DNA of 64,000 nt from Paramecium tetraurelia (lineage: Eukaryota; Ciliophora; Oligohymenophorea; Peniculida; Parameciidae): assembly GCF_000165425.1 (NCBI RefSeq), contig NW_001799400.1, forward strand, positions 310,001 to 374,000, written 5' to 3'. A model generated the notes under the pieces. It did not search any database. It saw nothing but the letters and a program-made list of their open reading frames with translations, and had not been told where the DNA came from. A program made the translations under genes and the position numbers. This document shows positions 40,075-62,170 of the stretch, in pieces (the first letter of the stretch is position 1; the number at the start of each line of letters is the position of its first letter).

Positions 40075-43000
40075 TTACTTGTTAAGACACTGCGCACAAA
40101 GGAGAAGCTATAAAAGGATTTTGTTTAAATTTGGGATGCCAAGAATCAAGACCTGAGTTCTGTCAATAATGCGGATGTGACTCTAAAAAGCATTTGAATT
40201 GCAAGAAAGACTTAAAAGAATTTGGTGAGATCTAAAGTTTTATAACAAAATTCAATCAGAGTATCCATGAATTAACAAACTAATTGAACCAATCATTTAC
40301 ATAAGTCAAAATAAAATATCAAGAATATTTAAAATACATGGAGGATATGAAAATATCAATAGTTAAGATTTCTGAATGTTTAAGTCAAAAGGATTATAAA
40401 TAAATGGAAAACAGTTTATAGGTGATTAAGGAATGGCATCAATATATAAACAATTAAAAGGAGTTTATAAAGGAGGATTTTATTAGTATTTTTTTTTAAG
40501 TAATATTTGTAGGTTCATAATTAGCTAGTATGAAGAAATTTATCCAGGCTATGGAATTTGATAAAGAATAATAATAATTTTCAGATATTCACTATGATTA
40601 TGAAAATTCACTTTAGTAAGGTATTCGAGTGTTAAAATGAAATTAGGAATACAATTACTAAATTAGTAGAAATGGCAGGAGGCTAATGAAAAAATTACTT
40701 AGTACATAAAATTATCAGCGAAACAATAAACATTGGCAACACTTTTTTAAAGTATTTCGATGATTATTTATATAATTAGTTATAAAAAAAATCGAAATGA
40801 ATTAACTTGGATAGGCAATAATTATGAGAAATTAGGCCGAAAAAATTAATAATAACTTTTATAGAGATCTACTAGACTATTCAAATGAAGAATTAATGAA
40901 AACCCCAAATAATATGGTTATGTTAATTGCATAAAGTTATTATAATATACAAATTAAATAGGTTATGCTTTATGTGAGTTAAAGTAATTTAAATAGGCTA
41001 TTGAGCAATGCGAAAAGGTTTTGATATAGGAATCTTAACATCTTCACGCTTTGAATAGAAAAAGTAATGAATGGTATAACATAAACAGGCGTTGCTTTAT
41101 AAAATTTGAGTGAACATTTAGATGCGATTTAATGTATTGATGTAGCTCTTTAAAAGAATCCAGAGTATTCTGTTGGTTATTTTAGAAAAGGTAATTTAAT
41201 GGTAAAATTTTAAGGATATTCCCTATGGTAATAGGGAAAAAATTAGGATGCAATTTTTATATTTGACAAAGCAATGCAAATAGATCCAAGTTATGCATCA
41301 ACCTATAATTATAAAGGTATGATTTCTCTAATTTGTAATAGGTAATGCCTTAAACGATCTTAAATAATACAATGAAGCTATTGTTTGTTATGATAAAGCA
41401 ATCTAAATATATCCAAATGACGAAGTAGCTTATTTTAAGAAAGGTATGAAATCTAGAATTTGTAATAGGTAATGCCTTAAGCGATCTTAAATAATACAAT
41501 GAAGCCATCGTTTGTTATGATAAAGCAATCTAACTAGATCCAAATGATGCATCCTTCTATAATAATAAAGGTATGAAATCTCTAATTTATAATAGGTAAT
41601 GCCTTAAGCGATCTTAAATAATACAATGAAGCTATTGTTTGTTATGATAAAGCAATCTAACTAGATCCAAATGACGAAGTAAATTATTTTAATAAAGGTA
41701 TGAAATCTCTAATTTGTAATAGGTAATGCCTTAAATAATCTTAAATAATACAATGAAGCCATTGTTTGCTATGATAAGGCTATTCAATTTAATAAAAATT
41801 ATTCAGTTGCCCATTTTTCTAAAGGTATGAAATCTCTTATATGTAATAGGTTATGCCTTACATAATCTTAAATAATACGATGAGGCCATTGTTTGCTATA
41901 ACAATGCAATCAAAATAGATCCAAATTATACATCAGCCTATTTTAATAAAGGTATGAAATCTCTTATTTTTAATAGGTACTACATTACACAATTTTAAAT
42001 AATACAAGGAGGCCATTGTTTGCTATAGTAATGCAATCGAATTAGATCCAAGTGATGCATCAGTCTATACTCATAAAGGTATGATATCTCTAATTTGTAA
42101 TAGGTAATGCCTTAAGCGATCTTAAATAATACAATGAAGCCATTGTTTGTTATGATAAAGCAATCTAACTAGATCCAAATGATGAAGTCGCTTATTTTAA
42201 GAAAGGTATGAAATCTAGAATTTGTAATAGGTAATGCCTTAAGCGATCTTAAATAATACAATATAGCCATTGTTTTTTATGATAAAGCAATCTAACTAGA
42301 TCCAAATGACGAAGTAGCTTATTATAAGAAAGGTATGAAATCTCTAATTTGTAATAGGCAGTGCTTTAAACGATCTTAAATAATACAAAGAAGCCATCTT
42401 TTGTTATGATAAAGCAATCTAATTAAATCCAAATTGCTAAGTAGCTTATTTTAATAAAGGTATGAAATTTTGTTTTTGTAATAGGTAATACCTTACAAGA
42501 TCTTCAATAATACAATGAATCCATTGCTTGCTATGATAAAGCAATCGAAATAGATCCAAATCAGGCTGAGTTCTATTTGTAAAAAGGTATAAATCTTTTT
42601 AATTTTACTAGGTAAGGTCTTACATGATCTTAAAAATTATAAGGATGCACTTGAATGCTATGACAAAGGAATCAAATTAGATTCAAGTTAAACATTAATC
42701 TATAATTATAAAGGTTTGAACCCTCTTAATCTTATTAGGTAGGACATTACATAATCTGAAGTCATACAATGAGGCAATATTTTATTATAATAATGCAATC
42801 AAACTTGATCGAAATTACGCAATGGCCTATAATAATAAAGGTATGAAATCTCTAACTTTTTATTAGGTAGGGCCTTACATGATCTTAAATAATACAATGA
42901 GGCCATTATTTCTTATGATGAAGCAATCAAAAAAGACCCAAGTCTTGCAATAGCGTTTAATAATAAAGGTCGGAATTCTATGAGTATTATTAGGCAGAGC

Positions 43001-46190: not shown

Positions 46191-46496
46191 GCTTTTTATT
46201 TGTTTAATGATTCTTTAATATGTTGTCAATCGTATTTAAGAGTCATTTTTTTTTTAAATAATTAGATCTCAATATATGAGAATATAATAATATTGTATGC
46301 TTATTATAATTAATCTTGCTTTTAGATACTAAAGATAGATTCAATATGAATCCATTTACATATTTACTAAATATATAAATATTTTAATGAAGGCTGATGA
46401 TAGTTATTAAGGTATTGGTGATCATTTTTGAAAGATTATTATAATATAATAATAATTAAAAAAAATAATGAATTATGAAGGGATATGAAAATTTAA

Positions 46497-47052
46497 TCAT
46501 TTTTTTTTATTTCCCTTTTAATCCTTTTCTTTTTCTTTCTAATTTTGTTTTTATTTTTCTTTTTCTTTTTCTTTTTCCTTTTCCTTAGTTTCTTTTGTCT
46601 CTTTTTAGTCCTTCTTTTAATTTTTATTTTTAATTTATTAAATTCTTTATTCATCTTCATCTTCGCTTTCCTCATCATCTTTAGAAGCCTTAGTGACTTT
46701 TTTTGATCCTTTTTTGTGTTTTTTCTTTTCTTATTTTAATTCCTTCAAGCAAGTTTTAACTTTTTCTTCATCTAATTTATATTTTTTGATCCAAGCCTCA
46801 TAATCTTTTTTATATTAATTTTAGGCCTTCTCTTTTTCATTTTCGTATTTCTAAATAAATATAAAATATTACCTCTTTTTTTTTTTTATCTAAATCATTC
46901 CACATTTAGGAAATAACTTAAGTTAATTCAGTCATGCTTTTCTCTTAATTTTTCTTTTTTACTTCATCATAAACTTCACCTCTATATATCATATATGCAT
47001 TTTGAGGTTTTTTTGGCATATGCTACATTGCATCCTCTGATATATAGTCCAT
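46497..47052 (-). CDS. HMG-box protein
   Basis: 177 residues after one 22-nt intron. The HMG box opens with PKKPQNAYMIYRGEVYDEV, continues through MTELTQVISQMWNDLDKKKK and closes with YKKDYEAWIKKYK. It is one HMG box of the sequence-non-specific (HMGB/FACT) kind. A long tail follows: acidic DDEESEDEDE, then Lys/Glu/Gln repeats. It probably bends DNA in chromatin. The count of a 12-base A run next to the intron matters for the frame and fits as written. Start chosen at MDYISEDAM; a later Met at 47019 is possible. Confidence 0.92.
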
Positions 47053-47143
47053 AAATTTTAAATTTAAATTTATATAACAAAATAGCGCTCAATCAAAGAT
47101 TTATTGTTTAATTATTAATGAGTGTTTAACTTAGAAATTCATT

Positions 47144-49118
47144 TCATATATTAGGGACATTAAAAGAATGAAAATCCCACCTCTCTCGTAATATATTGTT
47201 TGTATTAACACAATTAAAATAATCAAACTATTGATAGAAAATGGTTCTCTATTTTTTAGATCCATTTCTATTACCCAAGATAAAGATACGTTAACTAATT
47301 GATGTCTCTAATTCTAATTTGATTGAAAGTAGCTAACAAATATATTCAAATTTACTTGTTCCATCACAAAATGACCATCCCCATGATCTGGCTAGAGTAA
47401 AAGCACAGATAATGGCCTCAAAAATGGAAACCTCCTTGTACATTGCCAAACCACCAAGACGCACAACTCGATGGAGAGTAGTAAAAATACTATCTGTGTA
47501 TCTCATAACCTTTGTTGGTAGATTTGCAATTATTTTGTTTTATAAGAAGTCATCTTTGATATTATTAGAGTAAAAGGTTTCTTTTTTCGGTATTTACAAC
47601 CTATATATATTTAATTGATATACTCCTATTATTATAGCTTAAAATCATTATTCTATAGGGTAAACATACTCAAATTGTATCCAGTTCCAAATACAAGTTA
47701 AGTTGTTTAACCATATACGCAATACCCCATAGATGCTATTTGTTCAGCTTATTGTTTAAAATCATTCAAGGTAACTTATTTAAACTGTGTAGTTTATTTT
47801 TTAAAAATTATAAATGCTGAAGCTCTACATGAATCTGTGCCATCTACAGCTCGAAAGGCAACAATATATTTGGATTATTGATTATCTGCCTACAAGGTCT
47901 ATTGATTATCAAGGATATAGAGTATTTGGCAATATTATGTTTTAAGGAATGACTCATTTAAGTATTGAATAGCTTTCTTTAGACCTGTTAGAGAATATAC
48001 GAATTTAGATATGACTCTCATTTATTCAACAAGATATTTAACTAATTAAGTGAAATCACCCGATGCTTCATTGTGTTTTAATTGTTCTGCTTCAATAAAC
48101 TTGTTAAATGATTGTGTATTTTCTGGGATATTGGAATAAAAGTCATCTGTAAATTTTTCTAATTTTAATCTAATTTGAGCCTAATGATCATAACGACCAC
48201 AATCATAGATAACAATATCAGTGTGTGATTCCTATTTCAAAACTTTTAGTATTTATTTCATGCCTCTTATGATTTTACCGAAAGCCACTCTTTTATAATC
48301 AAAGAATGGCATAGGTGCCAAAGTAATATAGAATTAGGAATGGTTTGTATGCTAAAATCCATCGTTTGCAAATCCAATGATACCTTCGCAATCATGTTTC
48401 AATGCATAAGATTCATCTTCAAAATATCCTCCATAAATAGATATCTTTTTATCAAACTAACCTCCTTAAATGAACCCTAAATTTAAATTATATTACAACC
48501 ATTAGGTTTGTATTTGGTGAATTTACTATTTTTATAAGTATAAAATTTGCCTTCAATATTGACACCTTCGCAGAATTTGGTGAAATTTTCACAAGCCTTA
48601 GGTGCAAAGTCATTAAATAATTCAATAACAACAGGATGGAGTTAATCATCGATTGACAACATCATTTATACATAAGCTAAAAGTGATTAAACATAAATAC
48701 TATTCTTTCTCGAATTAAAAAATCTCAATTACGATTCATAGGCTTAACTAATCATGGTCTGAGTAAATTTAATTCTACGACTTGCATGTACAGTAGGTGT
48801 TCCATTCTAAATCAATAACAATGGTCTATGATATTTCTATTTTATAAACCTTTTCACTGTTTTAGACATAAATGAGTCATCCATAGTAAACGGTTCTTAA
48901 TTGCAAAGAGGTTGTAATTTCTTAATTTAAATTCTCAATGAAGCATCCCTTTTCAGCAGTTTCACTTGGTGATCATATTCAGACTGATTTTTTATTAATG
49001 TATTTACCTCATGCATTTCTTAGATCTCATAGGTCTTTTTTCGTTCTGTCAATTGCAAATTTTTGAAGTGCAATAAATCTGGATTACCTGTTACGCTCAT
49101 CACTTTAATTTTGCTCAT
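47144..49118 (-). CDS. Cyclophilin domain fused to a fructose-1,6-bisphosphatase-like domain
   Basis: 642 residues after two 23-nt introns; the length divides by three and there is no TGA between the two domains. Residues 1-150 form a PPIL6-like N-terminus. Residues 150-300 are cyclophilin: HPVVIELFNDFAPKACENF, GFIQGGQF, YGGYFEDESYALKH, HSQFYITLAPMPFFDYKRVA. The catalytic Arg of cyclophilin A is Lys here, and its Trp121 and His126 are Phe and Arg. From about 330, class I FBPase homology starts (SFNKFIEAEQLKHNEASGDF). It runs through YIVAFRAVDGTDS and QIASMGYCVYGQTTQLVFGT to MRYTDSIFTTLHRVVRLGG. Metal ligands in SEE, KKLD and the first Asp of DPLDG are gone, so it is probably a catalytically dead FBPase fold. 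Confidence 0.85.
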
Positions 49119-49200
49119 TTTTAATTTTATGTAATAAAATGAGATGATTTAGCTACTATAAAAAACTGGTGATAAATTAAAGAATAAAAAATTGGAGAGA

Positions 49201-50555
49201 ATGATAGCAGTGAATCCTTCAAATACACAGTTCACTTAATAATTCTTGTAGTAATAACTTGATAAAAGCAACACTTAAAAAAAAGGTACCTTACTCACCT
49301 AAAATGAATTGAATTAAGCAATAAAAAAGTTTCAAGAATATATAACCAAAAATCAGGACGCACATTCTCTACAGACTTATTAAAAATCCTAAGAAAGTGA
49401 AAATATGTAAGATAAGTCCAGGTTTAAAACAATAAATTTTGACACTTCCTCCTCAAAAAAAGTCTAATCAAAGCATTCGCATAAATTATCTCATGCCATA
49501 CCGACAATTGCAAACGACAAACCACAACCTCAACATTTTAGACAATCTTCGGATATTATAAGAAATGATGGCATTGTGGACAAACTCTATGATTCTCTAA
49601 TGAGCAGAAATGCTGGAAATTCTAAACCGATAACACCAAAATGTGGGACATTTCAATTTCCTTAATTTTCAGATGATAATCAAGAATTAACAAATGCCAA
49701 CTTAGAAGAAATATACTATATTCAGAAAGTTAAATAAGCCATAATATTATAAAATTAAAATGATTATTTTACTAGATTATATCGAAATCATTTTAAACAA
49801 TTATGTCAAGAATTAAGTATTGGCATCAAATTAAAGCCTGCCAATTATACAGACATTAAGACAAAGGGAGTTAAATTAGACAAACAAAATAAATATAAAG
49901 GTATTTCTTTAAAATATTTAGATTCAATCACTCTTATATTTGATTTAGATGAGACATTAATACATTGCAATGAACGAGATCATAAATTATATGATGCCAT
50001 TCTTACTGTCAATCTTAATAAAACATAGCAAGTATAAGCTAAAATTAATGTACGACCAAATGCAGTTGAAATACTGAGAAAGTTATCAGAGAATTTTGAA
50101 TTAATAGTATTTACAGCCTCTAATAAAATATATGCCAAAAGCGTAATTGATTATTTAGATCCAAATAAGGATATATTTGCTCATAGGCTTTATCGAGAAT
50201 CTTGTATCTTAACATCAGGTGGAATTCACGTTAAAGATTTAAGAATACTTAACAGAAATTTAGAAAAAGTAGCTATAATTGACAATTCCGCTTGCAATTT
50301 TTCATGGCAAATAGATAATGGAATCCCTATAATCCCTTTCTATGACAATTAATTAGATGATGAACTTAATCACTTATACAAATATCTATCTGGCATGAGA
50401 GAGTGTAACGATGTTAGAGAATATAATAGGTATTTCTCAGTTTTATTTTTAGGAAACATCTTCAATTATATAGATACACAGGCAATATTAACTAATATCA
50501 AAACATTAGCAGATAAATGAAGGAATAGGATTATGTGATTGAGGATAAAAATTGA
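49201..50555 (+). CDS. CTD-type (NIF/SCP) phosphatase
   Basis: 443 residues after one 23-nt intron near the 3' end. The N-terminal 240 residues are Gln/Ser-rich. The HAD-fold phosphatase domain then begins with the nucleophile motif TLIFDLDETLIHC (DxDxT). It continues with INVRPNAVEILRKLSENFEL, IVFTAS, and the motif III region VAIIDNSACNFSWQIDNGIP. It ends with LDDELNHLYKYLSGM. Members dephosphorylate Ser/Thr, for example on the RNA polymerase II CTD. The true substrate is not visible. It is divergent from the cyclophilin-FBPase gene (82 bp between starts). Confidence 0.92.
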
Positions 50556-50945: not shown

Positions 50946-52565
50946 ATGAGCTCGTTAAATCGAACAGTTAAATAGATTGGTCAATATTAATACAATGAGA
51001 GACATTGCTTAGGAGAAGGAGCGTATGGAAAAGTGTATTAGGGAATGGATATTAAAACAAATGAAATAGTTGGAATCAAGAAAATGGATTTAGTATTATT
51101 TGAGAGGGATACTTATCTAAGGAATTAGATTGTTAGTGAGATTGAGATATTAAAGAAGTTTAATCATCCAAACATTGTCAGATTTATAGATCTGATTACT
51201 ACTCAAAGATCTCTTTACATAATTACTGAGTTTTGCAAGGATGGGGATTTGAAGGAATTTCTTCAAAAAAGGAGGTTGACAGAAAAAGAGGTAAATATTC
51301 TATCTATTTTTGAAAGGCTCAAGGCATCATGTTATAAATTGTAAATGGATTCAAAGAATTAGTTAAACAAGGAGTTATTCATAGAGATCTTAAGCCAGCA
51401 AATATATTAAATCATGAAGGCATTGTCAAAATAGCAGGTAATTGACTATTCAAAAAACTTAGACTTTGGATTTGCCAAGTACGTAGACAATTACACATCA
51501 TAATTATTAAGATCATGCGTTGGTTCTCCATTATATATGGCACCTTAAATATTGCAAAGGAAGAGCTATTCAACGAAATGTGACATTTGGTCAATTGGAG
51601 TTATATTTTATGAGATGGTATTCCATGATGTTCCTTGGAAGGGAAGGGATGAGTAGGATTTGCTCAAAAACATCTTAATAAAGCCCTTAGTGTTCAAGGG
51701 CAATCAACCAATCACTGATTTTACTCGAGACTTTTTGACAAAGGCTCTGATTGTAGAAGAATCTGAAAGGATTTCGTGGGATCAAGTCTTTTAGATGTTT
51801 GAAAGTATGGAAAAGGGATTAGTTTCCAACAATCCCACTTTATAAAAGCTATATAATGATTAAAATTTGAGTTGGATGCAAAAACAATAATAAAAAATGA
51901 CAGGTGACTAACTAGTTAAGTAATTATTATTTTTGTAACAAATGAAATAAAATATAGCATTTCGACACTTTGTTAATTTCGAGTTGTATTAAAAATCAGA
52001 TTAATTGAAGTTACTATTTAGAAGAGATTAATCATTAGAAGAATGTATTGCAATTCTATCAAGGCTTGTTCTTGCATATAGCAATTTGTTGATATAATTG
52101 ATAGAGGAAACCTGTGATTCTGGAGAAGATATTCTGATGAAAGGAACTAAGTGGAATATTTTAAATTTCATCAAGAACGAATAGGAATATTATAAAATTT
52201 TCTTTTAAAATTGTAAAGAGCAATTTTGTAAAGAAACACAATATGAAGCTGAATTATCAGATTCTGATAGAAATAAATTAGAAGATAGTTTGACAACAAA
52301 AATCATCAAATTGATTGGAGATAATATTGATGATCTTAAAAAGAAGATATCTGAGGGAATATTGTATTAAAATTTGTTAATTTTTAGTTAAGATAGTTTG
52401 ATTGCCATAGAATTATTGTTGGATTAATAAATTGCTCATAAAAATATTGTTAAAACAACAGATTTAGACTTTCAAATGCTATTGATAGAAAAGTAATAAA
52501 GAGAGGATTGGAGAAAAATACTAGATCGCATAACAAATAAATGGAGATAACTTTAGAAATTATGA
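50946..52565 (+). CDS. Ser/Thr protein kinase, ULK/Aurora-like
   Basis: 522 residues after introns of 26 and 25 nt. Complete kinase domain: glycine loop LGEGAYGKVYQG, ATP lysine in VGIKKMD, catalytic loop VIHRDLKPANIL, DFGFAKY, and activation segment end GSPLYMAPQIL (APQ in place of APE, as in several ciliate ULK-like kinases). CDIWSIGVIFYEM follows. The second intron splits the DFG region. The C-terminal 240 residues are helical without a known domain. By similarity it belongs near the ULK/ATG1-type kinases; an autophagy or ciliary role is only a guess. Confidence 0.92.
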
Positions 52566-60969: not shown

Positions 60970-61300
60970 TATTAAAAGTATATCAAAGATTTAAATTTTT
61001 ATTCTCACTCTATATGATTATTATAAAATCATGATATTTTTTAATGTAAGATTTAATTTACTTCCTAAGGATGATTCTCAATAGAAAAATCTAAATCACC
61101 TGAAAATTAAGATAATTTGCAATTTTTATATACTATAATAAATCCCAAATGTATTATTTGAATTGATAAACATTTTGGTTATTAAAACTCTTTCTATTAT
61201 ATATTTTATTTAATTAGACTGATTCGTAGGATCTATTTGTTTGATTATTTATCAGTCTATTGTAAACTTTAATATTAATATATCATATATATCACACACC

Positions 61301-61318
61301 CCGCGGGGGGGGGGGGGG
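61301..61318. other. Poly-G run, likely sequencing artefact
   Basis: A run of 13 or so G preceded by CCCCGC in otherwise AT-rich DNA. Such runs are typical of failing base calls at read ends. It stands at the left edge of the low-quality duplicated segment before the N gap. Confidence 0.7.
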
Positions 61319-61645
61319 CTATTATTATTAATTATATACATTCCTAATAATTTCCCGCCATAATTCTATTTTCCTTACAAAATATAAAATTTAAACTTAT
61401 TTTTCTCTTATTTTAACTACTTTCTATTATATCGTTCATTCATCCATTCAACTTATTTGCATTACTTTATCTATTACTCCTATTATAAATATCTTTTTGC
61501 AAAATTGCACCCTCATACTTTACCTTAATTATGCAAAATTATGGCCAATACACCAGCTTTCTCCTTAGAGTGACGGCGGGGGCTTGGGTTCAAAATGTAT
61601 GTCACCGAAGAGATAAATAGTTAGGAATTCGTTTGATTATGCTCT
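61319..61645 (+). repeat. Left copy of direct duplication flanking the gap
   Basis: Matches 61849-62170 in order along its length. Shared anchors include ATTATATACATTCCTAA, TATATCGTTCATTCA, AATACACCA and CGTTTGATTATGCTCT. Many differences are extra G or C in this copy (for example a GGCGGGGGCTTGGG patch near 61575), and spacing between anchors is roughly kept. Looks like a noisy version of the right copy. Confidence 0.75.
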
Positions 61646-61795
61646 NNNNNNNNNNNNNNNNNNNNNNNNNNNNNNNNNNNNNNNNNNNNNNNNNNNNNNN
61701 NNNNNNNNNNNNNNNNNNNNNNNNNNNNNNNNNNNNNNNNNNNNNNNNNNNNNNNNNNNNNNNNNNNNNNNNNNNNNNNNNNNNNNNNNNNNNNN
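61646..61795. other. Assembly gap of 150 N
   Basis: 150 unknown bases. The flanks are copies of each other, so the gap may be false (an unmerged overlap) rather than missing sequence. Confidence 0.95.
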
Positions 61796-61848
61796 CTTTG
61801 GACTCGAGGTATCATATATATTATATATATTATATAATAAATTATATC

Positions 61849-62170
61849 TATTATTAATAATTATATACATTCCTAAGATTTTAAAGCCATAAATCTATTT
61901 GCTTGACAAAATTAAAATAAAAACAAACTTTTTTTATTTATTTTCTAATTTCGAATATATCGTTCATTCAACCAACCAATTTATAAGCAAGAATTTTGTA
62001 TAAATACTGATGAAAATACTTGTGATAATTGCTACTTCATAATTTAAATTAGATATACTAAAATTATGACAAATACACCAACTTTTTCTATAGAATGAAA
62101 TGTAAAGATTAATTCAAAATAAATGAAAAGGAGGAGAAAGATAGTTAGGAATACGTTTGATTATGCTCTT
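61849..62170 (+). repeat. Right copy of direct duplication flanking the gap
   Basis: Diverged direct copy of 61319-61645, with normal AT-rich composition. Both copies contain a short frame beginning M-A/T-NTP and a TGA ten codons later. Confidence 0.75.

Follow-up and report, generated by a model that had tools for sequence, protein, structure and literature searches.

The window, the 64,000-nucleotide stretch of Paramecium tetraurelia DNA analyzed here, carries on its minus strand a gene that encodes a cyclophilin domain and a domain resembling fructose-1,6-bisphosphatase (FBPase). Further copies were sought across this genome, 69 Mb in 231 contigs, and the query was the C-terminal half of a two-intron gene model. 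Two more were found, on contigs C164 and C172 (loci L012 and L013); the window copy is on C178. The gene model below takes its splice sites from a comparison of these three paralogues. All features are on the minus strand, and residue numbers are those of the window copy.

47223..49118, minus strand: whole coding sequence, 7 exons, 584 residues, TGA stop (splice comparison of the three paralogues)
48672..49118, minus strand: N-terminal region, residues 1-125, comprising exons 1-3 and the start of exon 4
48984..49007, minus strand: intron 1, 24 nt (24 and 28 nt in the paralogues)
48826..48849, minus strand: intron 2, 24 nt (23 and 25 nt in the paralogues)
48677..48700, minus strand: intron 3, 24 nt (25 and 24 nt in the paralogues)
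48477..48499, minus strand: intron 4, 23 nt, within the cyclophilin domain (paralogue comparison)
47601..47623, minus strand: intron 5, 23 nt (paralogue comparison)
47333..47355, minus strand: intron 6, 23 nt, which fixes the C terminus (paralogue comparison)
47624..48476, minus strand: exon 5, 853 nt, with most of the cyclophilin domain, the linker and the N-terminal half of the FBPase-like domain, unbroken
48187..48671, minus strand: predicted PPIL6/RSP12-like cyclophilin domain, residues 126-279
48064..48186, minus strand: linker, residues 280-320 (41/41 identical to L012 and 28/41 to L013)
47223..48063, minus strand: FBPase-like domain, residues 321-584, apparently degenerate in its catalytic site

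The start is the ATG at 49118 on the minus strand, and it opens a frame in the ciliate code. Six introns occupy identical positions in all three copies, and each has the form GT...AG. Introns 1-3 of the window copy have 24 nt each and introns 4-6 have 23 nt, and those of the two paralogues range from 22 to 28 nt; these calls rest on the three-copy comparison. The ciliate code, the intron sizes, and the duplicated genes point to a Paramecium. The corrected proteins have 584, 584, and 585 residues, and TGA ends each of them. The sequence-only reading had described an uninterrupted frame with only two introns that ran to 47144 and encoded 642 or 643 residues. This does not hold, because there are six introns and the stop is the TGA at 47223. 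The first three introns had been overlooked and translated as protein because their length is divisible by three, which left the frame unbroken. Intron 6 (47355-47333) was also overlooked, and therefore the C terminus of the earlier model was out of frame; the three-copy comparison rules that C terminus out. The corrected C terminus completes the FBPase homology, and FBPase models match up to residue 579 of 584. An AlphaFold prediction for one stretch of exon 5, made without an alignment, had a mean pLDDT of 34.4, too low to be informative.

Both domains were recognized by family models. With the two-intron model, Pfam Pro_isomerase matched at an E value of 1.2e-27 and Pfam FBPase at 3.9e-11 (43.4 bits, against a cutoff of 34.8). 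This bears out the earlier claim of one protein that joins a cyclophilin to an FBPase-like domain, as does the presence of the fusion in all three copies found, on three contigs. Because those contigs carry divergent copies, an assembly artifact is ruled out. The window copy is identical to L012 at 565 of 584 residues, and the ratio of nonsynonymous to synonymous changes (dN/dS, NG86) between them is 0.029. By region, the ratio is 0.028 for the N terminus, 0.036 for the cyclophilin domain, and 0.028 for the FBPase half. Purifying selection is thus strong in both halves, with a dN/dS of about 0.03. Identity to L013 is lower (442 of 584 residues; 103 of 125 in the N-terminal region), and synonymous sites are saturated in that comparison. 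Outside the gene, positions 46463-47123 match the L012 flank at 84 per cent and positions 50967-51193 match the L013 flank at 83 per cent, as expected for copies that arose by whole-genome duplication.

The domains might instead belong to two separate proteins of neighboring genes that had been joined by error. In L013, Met287 and Met329 fall between the domains and could be offered as a start for the second protein. However, a single exon covers both domains in all three copies, and the three divergent copies show the same layout. Between residues 241 and 421 of the window and L012 copies, methionine occurs only at 255, in the cyclophilin domain, and at 335, in the FBPase half, with none between those two. 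L013 lacks Met335 and has additional methionines at 287, 329, 336, 368, and 414. The interdomain methionines are not shared among the copies, and therefore no start codon between the domains is conserved. The shared exon and the lack of a conserved internal start rule out the two-gene reading, which we regard as barely credible. The cyclophilin-FBPase fusion is real as judged from these gene models, which predict one protein.

The relationship of the C-terminal half to FBPase was seen with several models. Pfam FBPase (PF00316) matched all three copies, at best with an E value of 3.7e-13, and the corrected half of the window copy scored 46.4 bits (cutoff, 34.8). Pfam FBPase_C (PF18913) matched all three weakly (best E value, 0.0054), and the window copy scored 15.2 bits, below the cutoff of 27. 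The NCBIfam class 1 FBPase model matched the window copy at 9.5e-17, and its score of 60.7 bits is far under the cutoff of 368 for true enzymes, as for a divergent relative; other NCBIfam class 1 FBPase models also extend to residue 579 of 584. When a profile of the three FBPase halves was searched against the PDB, FBPases matched at 3.8e-11, and all 39 matches up to an E value of 10 were FBPases. The similarity to class 1 enzymes (human FBP1 and FBP2 and the pea enzyme) spans approximately residues 372 to 579, and the alignment to pea FBPase reaches nearly to the C terminus. The class 1 landmarks retained are the DG of DPLDG, GYxxYG, RY, GG..Y, and Glu280.

Elsewhere in the genome there are four conventional FBPase loci with DPLDGSS. 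The fused half is identical to the pea enzyme at 48 of 156 positions, to human FBP2 at 41 of 161, and to the host conventional enzyme (a C-terminal piece, L003) at 36 of 191. Since it is closer to pea FBPase and human FBP2 than to the host enzyme, it probably does not derive from a recent duplication of the latter. A further locus, at 101000-104500 of contig C192 (L043), holds a C-terminal remnant of a conventional-type FBPase with an in-frame TGA and is apparently a decayed copy.

The metal and catalytic acids of class 1 FBPases are Asp68, Asp74, Glu97, Glu98, Asp118, Asp121, and Glu280. The first Asp of DPLDG (Asp118) is Arg in all three copies. Glu97, in the SEE motif, is hydrophobic in all three (Ile in the MAFFT and PDB-profile alignments, Leu in another). 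Glu98 is Leu in the MAFFT and PDB-profile alignments but pairs with Asp in another alignment. Asp68 lies opposite a Lys and Asp74 opposite a gap; these two positions were judged only against the host conventional enzyme because the human piece begins at residue 84. Conversely, Glu280 aligns as kept in all three copies, and Asp121 is Asp, Asp, and Glu. The alignments therefore sustain part of the earlier claim that the acidic ligands are replaced: Asp118 and Glu97 are gone from every copy, but not every ligand has been replaced. Compared with class 1 FBPases, then, the fused half has Arg for Asp118, lacks Glu97 and any acidic counterpart of Asp68 or Asp74, and has a cyclophilin attached. In these alignments, the metal and catalytic acids of the FBPase half are mostly lost.

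The cyclophilin half has also been altered. Pfam Pro_isomerase recognized it as given above, and a corrected three-copy profile matched PDB cyclophilins at 2.8e-28. The Arg of FHR and the His of WLDGKHVVFG are the cyclophilin catalytic residues. An alignment of the window copy has FTK in place of FHR and KRVAFG in place of KHVVFG (FFDYKRVAFG versus WLDGKHVVFG), and the loss extends to all three copies. The earlier claim that this Arg and His are replaced is therefore correct.

These substitutions bear on whether the protein could still be a working enzyme, an unusual phosphatase, prolyl isomerase, or both that uses the substituted residues. The purifying selection on both halves is compatible with that possibility, as are Glu280 in all three copies, the Asp, Asp, and Glu at position 121, and the pairing of Glu98 with Asp in one alignment. 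Set against this are the Arg at Asp118 and the hydrophobic residue at Glu97 in every copy, the Lys and the gap opposite Asp68 and Asp74 in the alignment to the host enzyme, and the replaced cyclophilin Arg and His. We consider a working enzyme very unlikely. Because key catalytic residues of both halves are lost in all three copies, the proposal that the halves are binding modules rather than enzymes appears to be the better reading.

A binding module might have a small ligand. The FBPase half could bind a sugar phosphate or nucleotide through the 6-phosphate subsite, so that the spoke or another complex senses energy state without catalysis. All three copies retain counterparts of human Arg243, Tyr244, and Tyr264 and also of Lys112 and Tyr113, and Lys274 is kept by gap placement; Asp118 and Glu97 are lost in the same copies. 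However, Tyr215 is opposite a gap, and Asn212, kept in two copies, is Asp in the third. Four of the six 6-phosphate residues are thus kept, for which the binomial probability is 0.038 at 25 per cent identity or 0.070 at 30 per cent, a calculation that is generous because these residues exceed average conservation in real FBPases. Also, Arg243 works across a dimer interface. A sugar-phosphate-sensing role, for which the evidence is this set of retained 6-phosphate-site residues, seems improbable to us.

The sequence-only reading had called the cyclophilin PPIL6-like. To place it, a profile of residues 101-190 of the three copies was compared with the PDB. Among the best 60 of 69 matches, PPIL6 (8j07_S and 9fqr_HZ), RSP12 (7jtk_W), and 9e5c_3h, a putative cyclophilin from a trypanosome axoneme, match from position 10-16 of the profile. 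None of the other 56 begins before position 23, a contrast weakened by the fact that many of those chains start near the domain and so offer little sequence for alignment to the extension. The N-terminal extension is less telling alone: phmmer with residues 1-127 did not retrieve PPIL6 up to an E value of 10, and a family match for residues 1-125 was not found.

Motifs separate the fused genes from other cyclophilins of the organism. The genome has at least 27 cyclophilin loci, three of them fused and 24 others. Three motifs, G[VI][LI]G[MFQ].N, H[ST]N.SQF, and SQFYITL, are shared by the PPIL6 segment and all three fused loci and are absent from the 24 others, although they were picked after the alignment had been viewed and a six-frame scan of unspliced DNA can miss motifs cut by introns. 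One such motif is NG[FW].QGG, which an intron interrupts in the fused genes; NGF[IL]QGG is visible in all three spliced proteins. VAFG, also a PPIL6 motif, is present in 3 of the 24 others. The fused copies are, by the motif test, the sole PPIL6-like cyclophilins among the at least 27 loci.

In a tree of 26 tips, which included 18 of the 24 other loci (two short and four later-fetched loci were omitted) and no RSP12 sequence, the fused proteins and PPIL6 formed a clade with an SH-aLRT value of 91.2 and a UFBoot value of 67, and the fused branch was long (1.19). Overall scores are less discriminating. Ordinary cyclophilins (e.g., 1qng_A) slightly outscore PPIL6 when the fused protein is searched against the PDB, and eight other loci outscore the best fused copy when the genome is searched with the PPIL6 segment. 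The shared motifs and the upstream extension nevertheless support a PPIL6/RSP12-like cyclophilin half, as predicted from sequence, and the tree does so moderately.

Two other loci, L027 and L028, are a divergent cyclophilin pair without the QGG loop, and L027 may have a leader peptide. They were considered as the real RSP12 and rejected: the L027 domain best matches ordinary cyclophilins, and among the best 60 of 115 matches PPIL6 is low and RSP12 is absent.

Published work places PPIL6 and RSP12 in radial spokes, a machine of motile cilia that the sequence-only reading did not name. In the mammalian axoneme, PPIL6 is reported in RS1 and RS2, near AK8, DNAJB13, CAMK4, RSPH1, and DYDC2 (PMC11779644). 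A published table lists RSP12 and PPIL6 together as one spoke protein (PMC6367277). In Tetrahymena, the spoke-neck proteins Rsp12A and Rsp12B both decrease upon RSP2 knockdown, and the authors of that study count Rsp12 among the spoke proteins whose orthologues are hard to find (PMC12399478). Because PPIL6 and RSP12 are radial-spoke proteins and, of the cyclophilins found, the fused genes alone are PPIL6-like by motif, we infer that the fused gene is most likely this organism's RSP12 with a pseudo-FBPase added as scaffold. Specifically, we favor a ciliate PPIL6/RSP12 with a C-terminal FBPase fold, in which both domains lack most catalytic residues and probably act as a protein-binding scaffold in the radial-spoke neck. 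The location is predicted from homology. Like PPIL6/RSP12, the cyclophilin half would dock on the spoke, whose contact surface the FBPase half would extend in a lineage-specific way.

The resemblance to PPIL6 and RSP12 lies in the same cyclophilin motifs, an extension that can be aligned upstream of the domain, and the altered catalytic His, which PPIL6 shares. The region before the domain is also of similar length, 115 residues in the fused protein and 133 in PPIL6. There are also differences. PPIL6 retains the Arg of FHR where the fused protein has FTK. The fused protein also adds an FBPase-like half of approximately 264 residues; PPIL6 chains of 307-311 residues and RSP12, with 181, are too short to have room for such a domain.

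The protein might not be ciliary at all. A divergent cyclophilin with a pseudo-FBPase could act in the cytosol, for example by regulating conventional FBPases through mixed oligomers. The ciliary placement is based on homology, and the four conventional FBPase loci are in principle open to regulation by a dead relative. However, the PPIL6-type motifs and extension argue against a cytosolic role, and identity is lower to the host conventional FBPase (the L003 piece) than to the pea enzyme, so a mixed oligomer is not favored. We regard a nonciliary role as unlikely. A variant of the spoke model itself would make the protein a metabolite gauge, in which the RSP12 pseudo-FBPase binds fructose phosphates or AMP at the phosphate subsite and makes beating responsive to energy state without catalysis; this we think quite improbable.

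Under the favored spoke-scaffold model, the fusion has partial precedents. Enzyme-type folds named in the relevant parts of two radial-spoke papers include AK7, AK8, AK9, CAMK4, PKA with MDH1A/MDH1B, and the NDK domain of RSP23, and those parts do not name an FBPase fold (PMC11779644 and PMC12399478). At least CAMK4 is reported to be probably active, whereas the fused FBPase half looks inactive. A point against the model is that "phosphatase," "fructose," and "FBP" are all absent from the main text of the paper on Tetrahymena radial spokes (PMC12399478). Joining a cyclophilin to an unrelated domain is likewise known in ciliates, from the alveolate protein CSY1, but there the partner is the splicing factor SYF2 and not an FBPase (PMC3143110 and PMC2713222). 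Recruitment of enzyme folds to radial spokes is known, and an FBPase fold joined to a spoke-type cyclophilin appears to be new.

The pairing had been put forward as undescribed, and our literature search agrees: the titles, abstract openings, and passages listed from openly searchable articles yielded no description of a cyclophilin-FBPase fusion. The cyclophilin-SYF2 fusion appears in a survey of Tetrahymena gene fusions, whose authors state that their program missed two known fusions (PMC3143110). Neither "fructose" nor "FBPase" occurs in the main text of that survey, a further point against the model (PMC3143110). According to another report, a PPIL6-like cyclophilin of Toxoplasma resembles PPIL6 in size and architecture, although its gene model and orthology are doubtful (PMC2713222). 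Since that protein is PPIL6 sized, the fusion may be limited to ciliates or even to a narrower group. No relatives were confirmed in prokaryote genomes or viral contigs.

Radial spokes hold several nucleotide and metabolic enzyme folds. A gluconeogenic fold that lacks key catalytic residues, sits on a spoke-type cyclophilin, and is strongly selected would clearly exemplify the conversion of metabolic machinery to a structural use. An old metabolic enzyme has probably been reused as a structural part of cilia. The fusion may also help to explain the difficulty of recognizing Rsp12 that is mentioned for Tetrahymena (PMC12399478).

Three other regions of the window were noted. An open reading frame at 49063-50520 on the plus strand resembles FCP1/SCP phosphatases and, by eye, has a DLDETL motif. 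Its possible ATG, at 49129 by hand count, is approximately 10 bp from that of the fused gene on the opposite strand, so, provided that both starts are correct, the two genes would be head to head and nearly without a spacer. Two open reading frames at 40715-42798 on the minus strand contain repeated similar stretches (by eye) and look like frames over a DNA repeat rather than genes. Finally, an open reading frame at 61260-62069 contains a run of undetermined bases, which appears as X in the translation.
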